A DNA stretch of 64,000 nucleotides from positions 1,736,001 through 1,800,000 of the forward strand of contig NZ_UATM01000032.1 of the NCBI RefSeq assembly GCF_900454685.1, in the 5' to 3' direction. This document shows positions 33,863-64,000 of this stretch, piece by piece. The translations under genes were made by a program, and so were the position numbers. The notes under the pieces were generated by a model. That model saw nothing but the letters and a program-made list of their open reading frames with translations, was not told the origin of the DNA and ran no database searches. Within the stretch, counting starts at the first letter, position 1. Each line of letters opens with the position of its first letter. Source of the stretch: Peptoniphilus harei (lineage in GTDB: Bacteria; Bacillota; Clostridia; Tissierellales; Peptoniphilaceae).

Positions 33863-33940
33863 TTAATATAATTTTGCTCCTGCTGGAATTTTATCTTCTA
33901 GCATCACTAGGTTTAATAGTTCTTCTCCATCATAGTCGCT
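33863..33940 (-). pseudogene. 3' remnant of metG (methionyl-tRNA synthetase C-terminal end)
   Basis: Minus-strand codons read SDYDGEELLNLVMLEDKIPA then GAKLY and a stop. This is nearly identical in protein to the last 25 residues of the metG-like gene at 38994, with silent and a few other DNA differences. It has no start of its own. It looks like an integration scar or a replaced attachment end. The sequence that abuts it upstream is an inverted copy of part of the second small-peptide gene. Confidence 0.8.
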
Positions 33941-35015: not shown

Positions 35016-35035
35016 ATATAACTCCTTTCTTGTAA

Positions 35036-35071
35036 TAAAAAAAGACGATAGAGTTTTTAATTTCTATCGCC
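35036..35071 (-). terminator. Terminator, copy A of a duplicated sequence
   Basis: Minus strand GGCGATAGAAAT and loop pair with CTCTATCGTC, followed by seven T. Nearly the same sequence recurs at 37227-37262. Confidence 0.8.
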
Positions 35072-35221
35072 TAAAATATCCACGTTTTAATATTTTCTAA
35101 TTCAATAAGTTTTTATCTCTTTGCTACAAGACCATATTTTAGGTCCAGCAGCTCTGAATATTAATATATTTACTTATTAATTCTATACATAAAACCTAAT
35201 ATAGATATAGCATCTTCCATT
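35072..35221. other. Spacer downstream of the ABC permease gene
   Basis: No coding or structured feature is recognised. Confidence 0.4.
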
Positions 35222-37164: not shown

Positions 37165-37226
37165 GTTTTAATAATACCACCAATAAAAATTTTTTTCAAC
37201 CCCCTTAATTTCCTAATTTTGAATAT

Positions 37227-37262
37227 AAAAAAAGACGATAGAGTTTTTTAATTTCTATCGCC
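37227..37262 (-). terminator. Terminator, copy B of a duplicated sequence
   Basis: The same stem, loop and seven-T tail as at 35036-35071, differing mainly by one extra T in the loop. It follows the kwaA-like gene. Confidence 0.8.
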
Positions 37263-37275
37263 TATTAATACTTTT

Positions 37276-37845
37276 CTAATATTCTAAATTATTTTTTTTA
37301 TGAGCTACAAACACATAGTTACTTAAGTAGTACCCTTTTAATTTATTCATACATTTCAAATGCTCTCTAGATATATTAGTAATAATAACCTCCCTATTCG
37401 AATCTCTATATATCATATAACCGAACATCGCCCATAAGGGATTCAAATAAATCAAGTTTAATCTAAGATAAATATAACCAATCAAAATAAAAAGAAATAT
37501 ATTAGCCATATATACCTCAGTTGTATTGTCACCATTCGTTACAAGAGGAATTATATATGTCATAATATAGCTAAGAACAGTATCGTCCGGCCTTTCCAAA
37601 TCTTCAATTAGTTTTTCCTTGCTCCCTTTTCCTAACTTTAATAATACAATGCTAAATATAGATATTATGATGAATAGACCCAATGCTAAGGTAACAATAA
37701 TTGAGAAAACATTCATACACTTAAAACCCTCAATAATTTTCTTATAATAAAGAATTGTTATCATAATATAAAGAGGAAAATATGAAGAAATAAACATAAT
37801 AGTTCTAACTAAACTATTATAAAGCTTATCCAGCCTTTTATTCAT
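37276..37845 (-). CDS. kwaA: KwaA-like four-helix membrane protein of a Kiwa-type defence system
   Basis: The 189-residue protein has four hydrophobic segments (about residues 14-32, 44-66, 96-112 and 118-140) and the features SSYFPLYIMI, DTVLSYIMTYIIPL and IYLNPLWAMFGYMIYR. These resemble KwaA, the membrane partner in Kiwa anti-phage systems. The start at 37845 is chosen because AGGAGG lies seven bases upstream. A longer frame overlapping kwaB is unlikely. It starts 13 bases after the kwaB-like stop. In published Kiwa loci kwaA usually comes first, so the order here is reversed. The assignment is by recall of family features, not a search. Confidence 0.6.
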   Translation of the reverse strand: MNKRLDKLYNSLVRTIMFISSYFPLYIMITILYYKKIIEGFKCMNVFSIIVTLALGLFIIISIFSIVLLKLGKGSKEKLIEDLERPDDTVLSYIMTYIIPLVTNGDNTTEVYMANIFLFILIGYIYLRLNLIYLNPLWAMFGYMIYRDSNREVIITNISREHLKCMNKLKGYYLSNYVFVAHKKNNLEY

Positions 37846-37858
37846 AAGATAACCTCCT

Positions 37859-38773
37859 TTATTTGTCATCTACTCCTTTTTGTTTATTAATAATACTCAA
37901 ATAATATGAATCTCTTAATATCCTTAGTATGTCCATGATTTGACTTTTCTCTTCATAGACTATAGTAAAACGCGGTTTTTCATTATAATTTATATCTAAA
38001 TTAAACATATCAATAGTTTCCTTGATATTTTTATAATTATCATATGTCTTAGATACATCTATATTTTCACTAGACATCTTAGTTAAAGTTTTTCTATAGC
38101 GACCATCATTTAAACAATCTTCATAAAAACTTTCAAAATTAACTATACCATCACTTAATCCTTCTTGAGTTAAAAATGCTGAAGCATTATCTCTAAACTG
38201 CTCATCTAGATTAAATATCCTTTCCAATGAGTAATGGGACAATATTATTATTTTATTATCAACTACTATAAAGTCTACCTCCCCATCTATCCCTATTAAT
38301 TTACTTTCTACCTTATTCAGAGTATTTCCGTTAAATCTTGCAATTATACCCTTAGAATGTAATTTTCTAAATTTAGTTACTCTTCTAAAGATTTTAATTT
38401 CAGGAAAATTTTCATCTTCTTTTTTGATTTCAAAAGTATAAAAATTATAATTATCTGGATCTATTTCTGTTTCTACATGATCGCTATTTCTAAAACTGTC
38501 AATAACTCTGTCATAATAATTTATATATGAAGTTTCACATGTTTCTATAGTGCCATCTTTATATCCTGTTGGATTATACTCAACTATCTCTTTGTCTGAA
38601 AAAGTTTCAACATACTCAATTATTAAATTTAATAAATCGTCGAAAATTTGTGCGTCTATATTTGGAGAAAAACTAACATAATTACCATTTCTTAATTTAC
38701 GTGAAAAAAACAAGTTAAATTCCAAATCATTTTCTCTCAAATTGCTAACTAAGTCAGCTATACTAATACTCAT
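37859..38773 (-). CDS. kwaB: KwaB-like (DUF4868) protein of a Kiwa-type defence system
   Basis: The 304-residue soluble protein has an N-terminal region FFSRKLRNGNYVSFSPNID. A central block, DFIVVDNKIIILSHYSLERI followed by FNLDEQFRDNASAFL, has the form of DUF4868, the domain of KwaB. KwaB binds DNA and acts with membrane KwaA against phage. The start at 38773 has GGAGG eight bases upstream. An upstream ATG at 38788 overlaps that site. The pair lies between metG fragments, next to an integrase, a setting typical of defence islands. Confidence 0.62.
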   Translation of the reverse strand: MSISIADLVSNLRENDLEFNLFFSRKLRNGNYVSFSPNIDAQIFDDLLNLIIEYVETFSDKEIVEYNPTGYKDGTIETCETSYINYYDRVIDSFRNSDHVETEIDPDNYNFYTFEIKKEDENFPEIKIFRRVTKFRKLHSKGIIARFNGNTLNKVESKLIGIDGEVDFIVVDNKIIILSHYSLERIFNLDEQFRDNASAFLTQEGLSDGIVNFESFYEDCLNDGRYRKTLTKMSSENIDVSKTYDNYKNIKETIDMFNLDINYNEKPRFTIVYEEKSQIMDILRILRDSYYLSIINKQKGVDDK

Positions 38774-38906
38774 ATTTGTATCCTCCATATTTTATATTTA
38801 TTACCATCTATTTTAAATTTTAACCGAATCAGTCTTTTGATAATTTAGTCCAAAATATTTTTGGTTGGATATTGTTTCTGATGTGTTATATAGGTCTATA
38901 GTAGAA

Positions 38907-38926
38907 ACTACGTTTAATAACGTAGT
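38907..38926. other. Short hairpin upstream of kwaB
   Basis: ACTACGTT and AACGTAGT form a perfect eight-pair stem with a four-base loop in the kwaB 5' region. It has no T run. A regulator site is possible. Confidence 0.4.
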
Positions 38927-38944
38927 ATCAAGCTTGATATAAAA

Positions 38945-38993: not shown

Positions 38994-39443
38994 TTAATAT
39001 AATTTTGATCCTGCTGGAATCTTGTCTTCTAGCATTACAAGGTTTAATAATTCTTCTCCATCGTATTCGCATACTGCTGATAGAAGCATACCGCAAGATT
39101 CAACTCCCATCATCTTTCTTGGTGGAAGGTTTGTTATTGCAACAAGAATCTTGCCAATTAAATCTTCTGCATCGTAAACATTTTTGATTCCTGATAGGAT
39201 AATTCTATCTTCACCAGATCCATCGTCAAGTGTGAACTTGAGAAGTTTTTTAGATTTTGGAACTTCTTCACAATTCTTAACTTTTACAACTCTGAAGTCA
39301 GATTTTGAGAAAGTATCAAAGTCTACCATGTCTTCAAATAGAGGTTCAACCTTTACCTTGGACATGTCAATCTTTGCACTTGCATTGTCATCTGCTGCCT
39401 TATTTGCTTTTATTTCTGCAACTTCTTTTCCAAGTGGCTTCAT
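38994..39443 (-). CDS. metG: C-terminal tRNA-binding domain of methionyl-tRNA synthetase, separated from its catalytic part
   Basis: The 149-residue frame holds the dimerising EMAPII/Trbp111-like OB domain: DFDTFSKSDFRVVKVKNCEE, then GIKNVYDAEDLIGKILVAIT, LPPRKMMGVESCGMLLSA and the C terminus LVMLEDKIPAGSKLY. In clostridia this domain ends MetRS and increases tRNA affinity. The frame is open further upstream (SKVEGIFPTMKPLGKE) until a TAG near 39490, where the integrated element begins. The rest of metG is not in the window. The piece could still be translated from an ATG at 39443 as a free tRNA-binding protein, although no good RBS is seen. Confidence 0.85.
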   Translation of the reverse strand: MKPLGKEVAEIKANKAADDNASAKIDMSKVKVEPLFEDMVDFDTFSKSDFRVVKVKNCEEVPKSKKLLKFTLDDGSGEDRIILSGIKNVYDAEDLIGKILVAITNLPPRKMMGVESCGMLLSAVCEYDGEELLNLVMLEDKIPAGSKLY

Positions 39444-39516
39444 TGTTGGGAAAATCCCCTCTACCTTAGATAATTGTCTAAATCTCTATAAAAGTCTATT
39501 TTATGGTACTTCTCCA

Positions 39517-39599: not shown

Positions 39600-40835
39600 C
39601 TAAAATATAAATTTCATTGCTTTTTCAAATTCTCCCATCTGTTCTATCTTAAAATCTTCTGTTGCATCTACATATATATCCATTGTTGTACTAATATCAG
39701 AATGACCTAGAATAGACTGCATTGCTTTTGTATTTATATTTTGTTCATTAAGCCTTGTAGTAAAGGTGTGTCTGAAAATGTGATTGCTTAAATGTGGAAC
39801 TAATAGAATATCATTAGAGTTCGATTTATTTTTATCCATTATACTTAAATTGCAATCTCTAACAATTCTTCTTAAAGCTTTATTAAGTGTTCCATTATTA
39901 TGAACCTTTCCAAATCTATTTAAAAATACAAAGTCTTTAAATCCATCGATTGAATCACAACATTCGATTCCAAAAGTCTTTTGTAACTCTCTTTCCATAA
40001 GAAAAGCATCTTTTACTTTTTGAACCATAGGAATACTTCGCTTACCTGATGCTGTCTTCGGTGTATTAATAGCATATCTATTGTTTAATCCTTTACCTTT
40101 ACTATAATATACCAAAGTCCTATTTACATTTATAAGACCATTATCAAAATCTAGATCGTCCCATTGCAATCCTGTAACTTCTCCAACTCTCATTCCTGTC
40201 CAAAGCATAACAATGAATATTGGATACCATTTTTTATATTCGTCACTATTAGATAAATATTCTTCAAATAGCACCTGTTCTTCTATTGTCATGGCTTTTT
40301 TCTTCGGAGATTCATTTCGATAAGCTACTTTCAATTCCTTCAAAGCATTGTCAGATGGATTAAACCTTATATATTCGTCATCCACTGCTAATTCTAAAAC
40401 CTGATGTAGCACAGTATGGACACAATCTATGGTAGAAACCATCAATCCCTGGTCTTCCTTTAATCTGTTATAAAAACTTCTAACATCAGATCTTTTAATA
40501 TCAGATAGTTTAATACGACCAAAAGTCGGTTCGACGAATTGTTGATACATATAGATGTAATTTTTAAAGGTATTATCCTTTAAACCTCTTTTTACCTTTG
40601 TCCATAACTTAAAAGTATCATTTACAGACAAGCTACTTCCTTCGTTGTTGATTCCATCTATAGTATTGCGTAAAATATCCAATTCCTTTTCTCTTAATTC
40701 CTTTAGAGTTTTCGCATAGATAGATTTTCTACGCCCTATTTTGTCTTGCCACTTAAATTCATAAGTGCCATTTGACCTTTGATATTCACCGTCTTTTAAA
40801 ACAACCCCTTTACTATCTTTGCGTCTTTTTACCAT
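39600..40835 (-). CDS. int: Tyrosine recombinase/integrase of the ICE
   Basis: A 411-residue site-specific recombinase of the Tn916 class. It has an N-terminal arm-binding domain (GTYEFKWQDKIGRRKSIYAK), a SAM-like core-binding domain, and a catalytic domain. That domain has the first arginine in WTGMRVGEVTGLQWDD, the HxxR box in LSNHIFRHTFTTRL and the tyrosine in TTMDIYVDAT. All catalytic residues are visible, so it looks functional. It is the gene nearest the element end and is followed by xis in the usual layout. Confidence 0.95.
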   Translation of the reverse strand: MVKRRKDSKGVVLKDGEYQRSNGTYEFKWQDKIGRRKSIYAKTLKELREKELDILRNTIDGINNEGSSLSVNDTFKLWTKVKRGLKDNTFKNYIYMYQQFVEPTFGRIKLSDIKRSDVRSFYNRLKEDQGLMVSTIDCVHTVLHQVLELAVDDEYIRFNPSDNALKELKVAYRNESPKKKAMTIEEQVLFEEYLSNSDEYKKWYPIFIVMLWTGMRVGEVTGLQWDDLDFDNGLINVNRTLVYYSKGKGLNNRYAINTPKTASGKRSIPMVQKVKDAFLMERELQKTFGIECCDSIDGFKDFVFLNRFGKVHNNGTLNKALRRIVRDCNLSIMDKNKSNSNDILLVPHLSNHIFRHTFTTRLNEQNINTKAMQSILGHSDISTTMDIYVDATEDFKIEQMGEFEKAMKFIF

Positions 40836-62617: not shown

Positions 62618-64000
62618 TTAAAGAGCCAGCGTGTTTTCTTCATCATTTATATGCAATTTTCTATGACACCAAGGGTGTACTAAAGTTTTAAGGGTAATGT
62701 TATTTTGAATTGTTTGATGTACTCTAAAGTCTGTATCAATAGTTATTTTCTCTCCACAAACAGGGCATATTCCATTTTGCGTTTTATACAGTCTATTTAT
62801 AACTGTACGTCCTTTAAGTTCGTTTCGTATTTTTAACTCTTCTCTTTCTTCAAAGTATATTTGCCAATTTTCATCAAACGGATTTGCTTCAGCTTGTATC
62901 TTGGTAAATCTTTTAATATCAGTATCTGTAGCATATTTAAGACGAAGATAGTATTTCTCGCCATTTTCCATTCTGTCGCCAGTTGCTACACTGAAAGTCC
63001 AGATTCTATTTCCAATGGTATGGAAGTATTTCTTAGCTATCCATTTTCTACCTTTCTTTGGGTGTCTACGAACGCACCAGGTCCACAAGCTTTTATATAT
63101 TTCATAATCAAGTTTTTCAAAGGCTTTAGATGAAACATTATATTTTTGATAGTTTACCCAACCTATAATGATTGGATTTAATTTTCTAATCAAAATTTCT
63201 TGTTTCATTGACGGATTATCTTTTATGATTCGTCTGATTTTATCGACAATAGCCTTGAAGTTCTTATCAGATGGTTTTGTAAGCAACTTATCTTTATACA
63301 TCCTAATATTAACTCCAAGAAAATCAAAACCGTCATTTATGTGTGTTATGAGTGTCTTTTCCTCTGATAATTCTAAACCTCTTTCAGCCAAGAATTTTAC
63401 AATGATTGGCTTTACACCATTTTCAAGCAATTCTGCACTTTCTCCTGTAACGATGAAATCATCTGCATATCTAACAAAGTTAACCTTTGGGAAATATGTT
63501 TTCTTATTTACTGTTCTTCTATGATGTTTCTCTTTGATTGCTTTTTCTAAACCATCTAATACCATATTGGAAATAATAGGTGATATTGGCGAGCCTTGGG
63601 GACTTCCTTTTTCTGTTGGAAATAGTTTTTGTTTTTCTATATATCCACACTCAAGCCAGAGTTTTAATAATTTCTTGTTCATTGGGATATTATTTAATAT
63701 CCATTCATGACTTATATTATCAAAACAACCTTTTATATCTCCCTCAAGTACCCATTTTGCAGATTTCTTTTTATTAAGTGATGTAAAACACTGCTCGATA
63801 GCATCTTGTGTACATCTTTTTGCCCTAAATCCATAAGAATTAGGGTCAGCAGTAGTTTCTGCTATGGGTTCAAGTGCAAATTTATATAGGGTTTGCATTG
63901 CTCTATCTGTCATTGTAGGAATGCTGAGAGGTCTTTTCTTCCCATTTTTCTTTGGTATATACACTCTTTTAAGAGGCTTAGGTTTATATCCTCTTAAATT
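62618..64000 (-). CDS. ltrA: Group II intron reverse transcriptase/maturase with HNH domain, N terminus outside window
   Basis: The visible 461 residues begin NLRGYKPKPLKRVYIPKKNG, so the GTG at 63964 is internal. RT motifs include RPLSIPTMTDRAMQ, GDIKGCFDNISHEWI, GSPQGSPISPIISN and the catalytic FVRYADDFIV. A maturase X domain (INPIIIGWVNYQKY type) follows, then a C-terminal HNH endonuclease CPVCGEKI...HPWCHRKLH. All key residues are present, so the intron may be mobile. Confidence 0.95.
   Translation of the reverse strand, partial: NLRGYKPKPLKRVYIPKKNGKKRPLSIPTMTDRAMQTLYKFALEPIAETTADPNSYGFRAKRCTQDAIEQCFTSLNKKKSAKWVLEGDIKGCFDNISHEWILNNIPMNKKLLKLWLECGYIEKQKLFPTEKGSPQGSPISPIISNMVLDGLEKAIKEKHHRRTVNKKTYFPKVNFVRYADDFIVTGESAELLENGVKPIIVKFLAERGLELSEEKTLITHINDGFDFLGVNIRMYKDKLLTKPSDKNFKAIVDKIRRIIKDNPSMKQEILIRKLNPIIIGWVNYQKYNVSSKAFEKLDYEIYKSLWTWCVRRHPKKGRKWIAKKYFHTIGNRIWTFSVATGDRMENGEKYYLRLKYATDTDIKRFTKIQAEANPFDENWQIYFEEREELKIRNELKGRTVINRLYKTQNGICPVCGEKITIDTDFRVHQTIQNNITLKTLVHPWCHRKLHINDEENTLAL

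Follow-up and report, generated by a model that had tools for sequence, protein, structure and literature searches.

The kwaB-kwaA pair of Peptoniphilus harei is very likely a complete two-gene Kiwa anti-phage system of the lineage in which kwaB precedes kwaA (B-first, the opposite order being A-first), with a mechanism that would follow that of its relatives. It lies on the minus strand of the 64,000-nucleotide stretch of DNA analysed here (the window). The two products are homologues of KwaB and KwaA by both sequence and predicted fold and are encoded as a tight two-gene unit, which has moved between genera and, in one relative, is the cargo of a conjugative element. It is an ordinary Kiwa, and its kwaB-first order is not new; the preliminary description of this DNA overestimated the novelty of that order.

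The pair and its expression signals comprise five features.

38773-37859, minus strand: kwaB, encoding the 304-residue soluble protein KwaB (DUF4868), which leads the pair.
37845-37276, minus strand: kwaA, encoding the 189-residue membrane protein KwaA, second in the pair.
38786-38780, minus strand: ribosome-binding site GGAGGAT of kwaB, recognised by eye, at the usual distance from the start.
37859-37852, minus strand: ribosome-binding site AAGGAGGT of kwaA, recognised by eye, which has one base in common with the kwaB stop codon.
37262-37227, minus strand: hairpin with the arms GGCGATAGA and TCTATCGTC and a T run behind it, recognised by eye; probable terminator of the kwaBA operon.

The reading of a soluble protein followed closely by a membrane protein, both with good ribosome-binding sites, was confirmed from the sequence, with 13 bases between the kwaB stop codon and the kwaA ATG, and the stretches quoted earlier for this pair, DFIVVDNKIIILSHY, DTVLSYIMTYIIP and NPLWAMFGYMIY, are all present in its translations. 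An alternative ATG at 38788 opens a 309-residue kwaB frame, but 38773 is the better start, since the upstream ATG would swallow the kwaB ribosome-binding site. Because the kwaA ribosome-binding site overlaps the kwaB stop codon, translation of kwaA is probably coupled to that of kwaB, which would tie the amount of the membrane partner to that of the DNA-binding KwaB. The terminator hairpin is absent from the listing of the consensus scan, which has a loop limit of 8, the loop of the hairpin being longer. It also has a near-identical copy at 35035-35073 (97.5% to 37225-37264 over 40 bases), and many more matches to this repeat occur across the genus; a shared terminator, a mobile repeat and an uptake signal are possible readings of it.

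KwaA had been described as a four-segment membrane protein. Its predicted model agrees, with four long helices (residues 3-21, 46-71, 87-106 and 109-128) plus short ones, whereas Kyte-Doolittle analysis with the cut set to 1.6 resolves just three hydrophobic regions, merged ones at residues 15-33, 37-75 and 109-135. The four-segment topology is plausible.

Both proteins fall into the Kiwa families by sequence. KwaB matches the Pfam family KwaB (PF16162) at 103.2 bits (2.2e-29, residues 107-296; cut-off 26.3); for KwaA no Pfam family lies above cut-off. Fourteen PADLOC KwaB models match KwaB (best PDLC00231, 4.3e-109) and 13 PADLOC KwaA models match KwaA (best PDLC00208, 8.9e-45), which, together with the low ratio of dN to dS given below, argues that the pair is not a chance match. 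Moreover, PDLC00231 and PDLC00224 match all 25 B-first KwaB sequences supplied, and PDLC00208, PDLC00214 and PDLC00217 match all 25 B-first KwaA sequences; the B-first lineage is already recognised by the PADLOC models of 2023. Against the sequences of the PDB, phmmer matched KwaA to solved KwaA (9o0i/9mrg) at about 2e-5 (1.8e-5), and the single KwaB sequence gave 0 matches. A seven-sequence KwaB profile reached solved KwaB (9mrx/9o0i) at 0.002, with unrelated chains close after, at 0.006 and weaker. The KwaB profiles of the B-first (25 sequences) and A-first (6 sequences) sides aligned with each other over 290 columns (probability 99.9, E 5.8e-33).

The pair stays below the cut-offs of the NCBIfam equivalogs, with 70.1 bits for KwaA (NF041622, cut-off 100) and 27.4 bits for KwaB (NF041623, cut-off 200), and is therefore a diverged Kiwa outside the E. 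coli-type equivalogs; these models describe a narrower subset of Kiwa, in which the pair is not filed. The diverged Gram-positive subtype suggested earlier agrees with these scores and with a B-first branch that is mostly Gram-positive. An unrelated membrane/soluble pair or a toxin-antitoxin pair was also considered and rejected: KwaB is the sole Pfam family above cut-off, and the PADLOC and strong PDB matches are exclusively to KwaA and KwaB.

AlphaFold models of KwaB and KwaA were each built from 25 B-first sequences, with a mean pLDDT of 84.5 and 87.2, respectively. Foldseek search with the KwaB model gave six PDB matches at E<=0.001, all of them KwaB (9nyu/9mrx/9mtn among them), with a TM of 0.58-0.63, an E down to 4e-11, an rmsd of 5.4-7.1 and 10-12% identity in the structural alignments. 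All six matches of the KwaA model at this threshold were likewise KwaA (9mrx/9mrr/9mrg among them), with a TM of 0.55-0.69 and an E down to 1e-8, and neither search returned any other PDB match at E<=0.001. At the level of single-chain models, to which this comparison extends, the predicted structures settle the family identity of KwaB and KwaA. The Kiwa identity proposed in the preliminary description is borne out by the HMM and structure searches it had suggested, which found the DUF4868/KwaB match and predicted folds that match those of the solved Kiwa chains.

The reversed order of the two genes is real and recurs among relatives, which were gathered through KwaB, with the position of KwaA then located by profile search. 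The gene-neighbour survey found kwaB first in 20/20 loci of the species-genome scan, in 13/13 viral contigs and in 5/5 phage or plasmid loci fetched from six records found; since these sets overlap and the species-genome and viral-contig scans were seeded with B-first sequences, the counts show that the order is kept, not how frequent it is. They also bear on the possibility that the assembly is at fault, or that the genes were rearranged in the P. harei genome alone. A KwaB search of this genome gave three matches, two of them on contig C11 (8.2 kb), which carries noisy, frame-shifted copies of part of the 36-38.6 kb region of the window on both strands; contig C22 has shorter matches to the region, also on both strands. 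Such copies could point to a faulty assembly, but the other loci share the kwaB-kwaA order, which makes this reading extremely improbable. Being noisy, frame-shifted and on opposite strands of one contig, the C11 copies are, like those of C22, probably assembly leftovers, and the extra KwaB copies were not counted.

Within the family of the window, a PADLOC KwaB match was found in five of 130 genomes, namely its own, G403 (P. rachelemmaiella), G412 (Anaerococcus marasmi), G416 and G422; the first three are B-first, G416 is A-first, and the match in G422 was read as chance. G403 and G412 were equated with the two named genomes because their KwaB proteins are the same and their contig positions nearly so. 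The A-first order was further found at loci L005, L006, L007 and L019, in five of the six plasmid loci fetched via A-first proteins (Emticicia, Microvirga, Halobacterium, Hymenobacter and Vibrio; in the sixth, from Natrinema, KwaB is short and KwaA is missing), and in five of the six viral contigs recovered with the Vibrio protein (the sixth is truncated by the contig end). When 398 Bacillota genomes were searched with Pfam KwaB, as a sample without motif seeding, eight had a match, six of them above cut-off: four were A-first (G012, G194, G289 and G386) and two B-first (the own genome and G155, with a short KwaB frame). A-first thus outnumbers B-first even among Bacillota, as far as this small sample goes. 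The KwaA-like region of G386 forms, by eye, the end of a 345-residue frame (L112 78-1115); a fusion or a wrongly read start could account for this.

Other searches added little. Viral-contig scans gave 0 relatives in 19 stretches with the window KwaB alone and 0/5 with each of the L006 and Emticicia KwaB proteins. The phage search found nothing beyond Clostridioides phage CD1801 with L006 KwaB and none with Emticicia KwaB, and the plasmid search with Emticicia KwaB found two Emticicia plasmids only. The 82 genomes in the class of G386 gave G386 and G155 only, and those in the class of G012 gave G012 only. Three loci were discarded as chance matches: L020, in which no KwaA or KwaB frame was found; L113, by eye a pilus-type ATPase; and L114, from the genus of L113 and below cut-off.

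The earlier statement that kwaA comes first in described loci was too strong, as the Kiwa genes of Streptococcus thermophilus 90730 are listed as 'kwaB, kwaA' (ORFs 0688, 0689) in the available portion of PMC11514479. Because a pair so listed is called Kiwa in print, the kwaB-kwaA order is a lineage mark, not a requirement of Kiwa.

Phylogeny shows how this mark is distributed. A KwaB tree was computed from 28 distinct B-first rows (window included), 12 A-first rows and the solved KwaB of 9o0i. B-first and A-first rows lie on opposite sides of one branch with a support of 100/99, and one order change suffices, compared to a mean of 10.6 after shuffling. The branch that sets off the B-first KwaB measures 1.39 changes per column, and the window KwaB is nested well inside it, next to A. 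marasmi and P. rachelemmaiella. The KwaA tree of 40 loci agrees, with a weaker support of 92/86. Four of the 28 B-first rows come from viral contigs for which no host is named; the 24 others comprise one Campylobacteraceae MAG (L036) and 23 from Bacillota, their phages or plasmids. Dropped from the trees were (near-)duplicates (L041-L043, L046, L048, L051, L053, L015, L050 and L122), second records of the same loci (L021/L022, equal to L018/L017; L108, L109 and L111, equal to L006, L005 and L007), own-genome copies (L001-L004 and L009-L011), L119 (short KwaB, annotation without KwaA), the chance matches L020, L113 and L114, and loci with a split, partial or unclassified KwaB or KwaA (L038 and L049, both B-first; L110, L112 and L008; L125, truncated by the end of its contig; and L126, an A-first locus whose KwaA frame is short).

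Restoring L110, L112 and L008, three partial or very long rows of which the latter two are A-first, raised the order changes needed in the KwaB tree from one to two. L110 (B-first, partial frame) joins L008 (A-first) at 98/95, on long branches and with both rows partial, and a single order change across the whole family is therefore not established. On this sample, B-first Kiwa is in the main a single lineage, though the order may have changed a second time, and the kwaB-kwaA order goes back to an old rearrangement by which a mostly Bacillota branch can be recognised.

It is unlikely, in our estimate, that the B-first Kiwa systems have a mechanism of their own, as a distinct subtype that took shape in monoderm hosts and in the prophages and conjugative elements of these hosts. 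In such a subtype, KwaB would be made before its membrane partner, the cue of the sensor would differ from that in E. coli, and the action would not run via RecBCD; gene order would then be the outward sign of a split in complex assembly and triggering. We also think it quite improbable that the pair is a Kiwa homologue with a changed job or trigger, which has kept the fold and serves, for example, a prophage- or element-borne exclusion of competing elements, its KwaA sensor being adapted to the envelopes of Gram-positive cells and its action independent of RecBCD. The long branch would fit such a change, as would the missed NCBIfam cut-offs and the many B-first members on prophages, plasmids or conjugative elements. 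However, defence genes are usually carried on mobile elements, and the folds match those of the solved pair. The S. thermophilus Kiwa, listed kwaB, kwaA, moreover protects against lactococcal phages, according to the available portion of PMC11514479.

Two features at the pair bear on how it travelled.

38836-37211, minus strand: kwaBA cassette, with 85% DNA identity (blastn) to A. marasmi L021 4945-6563.
38902-38830, minus strand: scrap of traG, 73 bases just upstream of kwaB, 94.5% to L021 traG (tblastn 4.9e-8).

The pair is common to two further genera. Its products are 91% (KwaB) and 85% (KwaA) identical to those of A. marasmi, and 78% and 68% identical to those of P. rachelemmaiella, compared to 57% and 53%, respectively, for Pgk between the hosts; being far closer than this housekeeping protein, the Kiwa pair has moved by horizontal transfer. 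In A. marasmi, the pair is part of a conjugative element, in which it follows a TraG-type coupling-protein gene; this element shares 95.5% DNA identity over 4.0 kb with an element in the P. harei genome. A second, partial copy of the coupling-protein gene occupies the place in A. marasmi (L021 4387-4833) that corresponds to the scrap in the window. Given the traG scrap upstream of kwaB and the partial copy likewise in A. marasmi, the window pair very probably arrived as cargo of this conjugative-element family, the rest of the element having been lost. It offers a further case of Kiwa as conjugative-element cargo, here staying behind beside an integration hot spot.

The same slot in the P. harei element (L083 5108-7131) encodes a 489-residue PIN-like protein (PF18476) and a 178-residue DUF1706 protein, so that the slot behind the coupling-protein gene holds alternative cargo, Kiwa at L021 4945-6563 and the PIN-like and DUF1706 proteins at L083. 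A close relative of the DUF1706 protein adjoins gntR in G512. TraG-type scraps or partial second copies lie beside cargo at window 38830-38902, L021 4387-4833, L085 8644-8763 and L086 7430-7549, as if cargo moves via recombination within the coupling-protein gene; 38830-38902 had also been considered as a mobile repeat, which was ruled out, as it is a scrap of that gene. Other defence genes accompany several loci: a cytosine methylase, an HpaII-type endonuclease and Vsr lie directly upstream of the P. rachelemmaiella pair (B-first L022), restriction genes lie near B-first L012, and restriction or BREX genes near A-first L117 and L118.

The surroundings of the pair carry the traces of an integration site.

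33863-33937, minus strand: lysS 3' remnant of 75 bases next to pgk, at the far end of the accreted segment that holds kwaBA.
38994-39452, minus strand: 3' remnant of lysS, the class II lysyl-tRNA synthetase gene, in a displaced position; it marks an integration site beside kwaBA.
39600-40835, minus strand: Tn916-type tyrosine integrase (Pfam PF00589, PF02920), a neighbour outside Kiwa.

From pgk, the order is the 75-base lysS remnant, a uracil-DNA-glycosylase-family gene, an ABC-transporter/GntR operon and kwaBA, followed by the second lysS remnant, the integrase, the remainder of a mobile stretch of some 54 kb and the intact lysS (G000:C5:1830211-1832133, Pfam PF00152 and PF01588). In the congener G515 (L098), lysS runs directly into the region upstream of pgk. 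The arrangement reads as repeated insertion at the lysS 3' end, with kwaBA caught in an accreted segment. Remnants of the lysS 3' end with this Tn916-type integrase recur in the genus. The mobile DNA of about 54 kb, between the lysS remnant and the intact lysS (window 39600-64000 and G000:C5:1800001-1830210), encodes by Pfam a Tn916-type integrase, a relaxase, a TraG-type coupling protein and a MATE transporter, and by eye ABC transporters; window 62618-63964 encodes a reverse transcriptase that also has a domain of group II intron maturases (PF00078, PF08388).

In genome G518, the similarity to the segment breaks off at 37283, having reached only the last few bases of kwaA, and begins again at 38938; with 37284-38937 missing, G518 lacks the Kiwa genes and little else there. 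A KwaB search across the 13 further genomes of the genus came back without a match. This result, and the scars around the pair, which has a lysS remnant on either side and a piece of a coupling-protein gene upstream, might suggest a decayed or silent copy left in the integration site. Such a copy is, nevertheless, very improbable: the frames are intact, the ribosome-binding sites are good, and a probable terminator follows. Compared to the A. marasmi copies, moreover, kwaB has a dN of 0.045 and a dS of 0.85, and kwaA a dN of 0.08 and a dS of 1.23, so that dN is about 5-7% of dS and the pair is under purifying selection.

For this Kiwa system, we propose a mechanism whose steps are drawn from the fold, the family and the solved or tested relatives, as summarised in the available portion of the review PMC12904381. 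KwaA would form a tetramer in the cytoplasmic membrane, and KwaB dimers would bind KwaA, connecting its tetramers to one another as a lattice. This complex would gather at the site of phage injection, where KwaB would then bind the incoming DNA and block replication and late transcription without cutting. The papers, as far as available, disagree on this action: the review states that KwaB does not cleave DNA, whereas a table in a second S. thermophilus study that also tested Kiwa gives 'DNA degradation' (PMC12322248). KwaB is reported to act without KwaA, which is thought to control it (available portion of PMC11514479). The available portions of these three articles hold no functional test of the P. 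harei pair. Among the Kiwa loci sampled here, the two orders are not intermingled but for the most part divide the family in two, A-first on one side and B-first on the other; the B-first side is mostly Bacillota and often on mobile DNA, and the order makes a simple subtyping label. As a pair from a Gram-positive anaerobe, it lets one ask whether the mechanism of the solved pair holds without an outer membrane.

Compared to the solved Kiwa (9mrg, 9mrr, 9mrx, 9mtn, 9nyu and 9o0i), which we take to be of the E. coli type, the P. harei pair likewise has both subunits, with the same folds by Foldseek; KwaA can be aligned to it by single sequence, whereas KwaB is too distant (0 matches). The gene order of the solved system, as in the E. 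coli locus, is presumably kwaA-kwaB, in contrast to kwaB-kwaA in P. harei, and its nearest relative here is the annotated Emticicia kwaA-kwaB, which is A-first. The S. thermophilus 90730 Kiwa, found by PADLOC, resembles the P. harei pair in its listed order and its Gram-positive host, and differs in being phage-tested, the P. harei pair being known here from its sequence (PMC11514479, available portion); from the listed order we infer that it belongs to the B-first branch. The order passes unremarked in the available portions of PMC11514479 and PMC12322248. Clostridioides phage CD1801 (MW512570) likewise has kwaB then kwaA, with a 22-base gap, and its KwaB is 43% identical to that of P. harei over 99% of the length, but its Kiwa is phage-borne, unlike the P. 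harei pair. The CD1801 record labels its two genes (L014 3980-5531) 'putative bacteriocin synthesis protein' and 'hypothetical protein'. The A. marasmi cassette (L021/L018) is also kwaB-kwaA, with a 14-base gap, and lies behind a TraG-type coupling-protein gene, whereas P. harei has only a scrap of that gene upstream.
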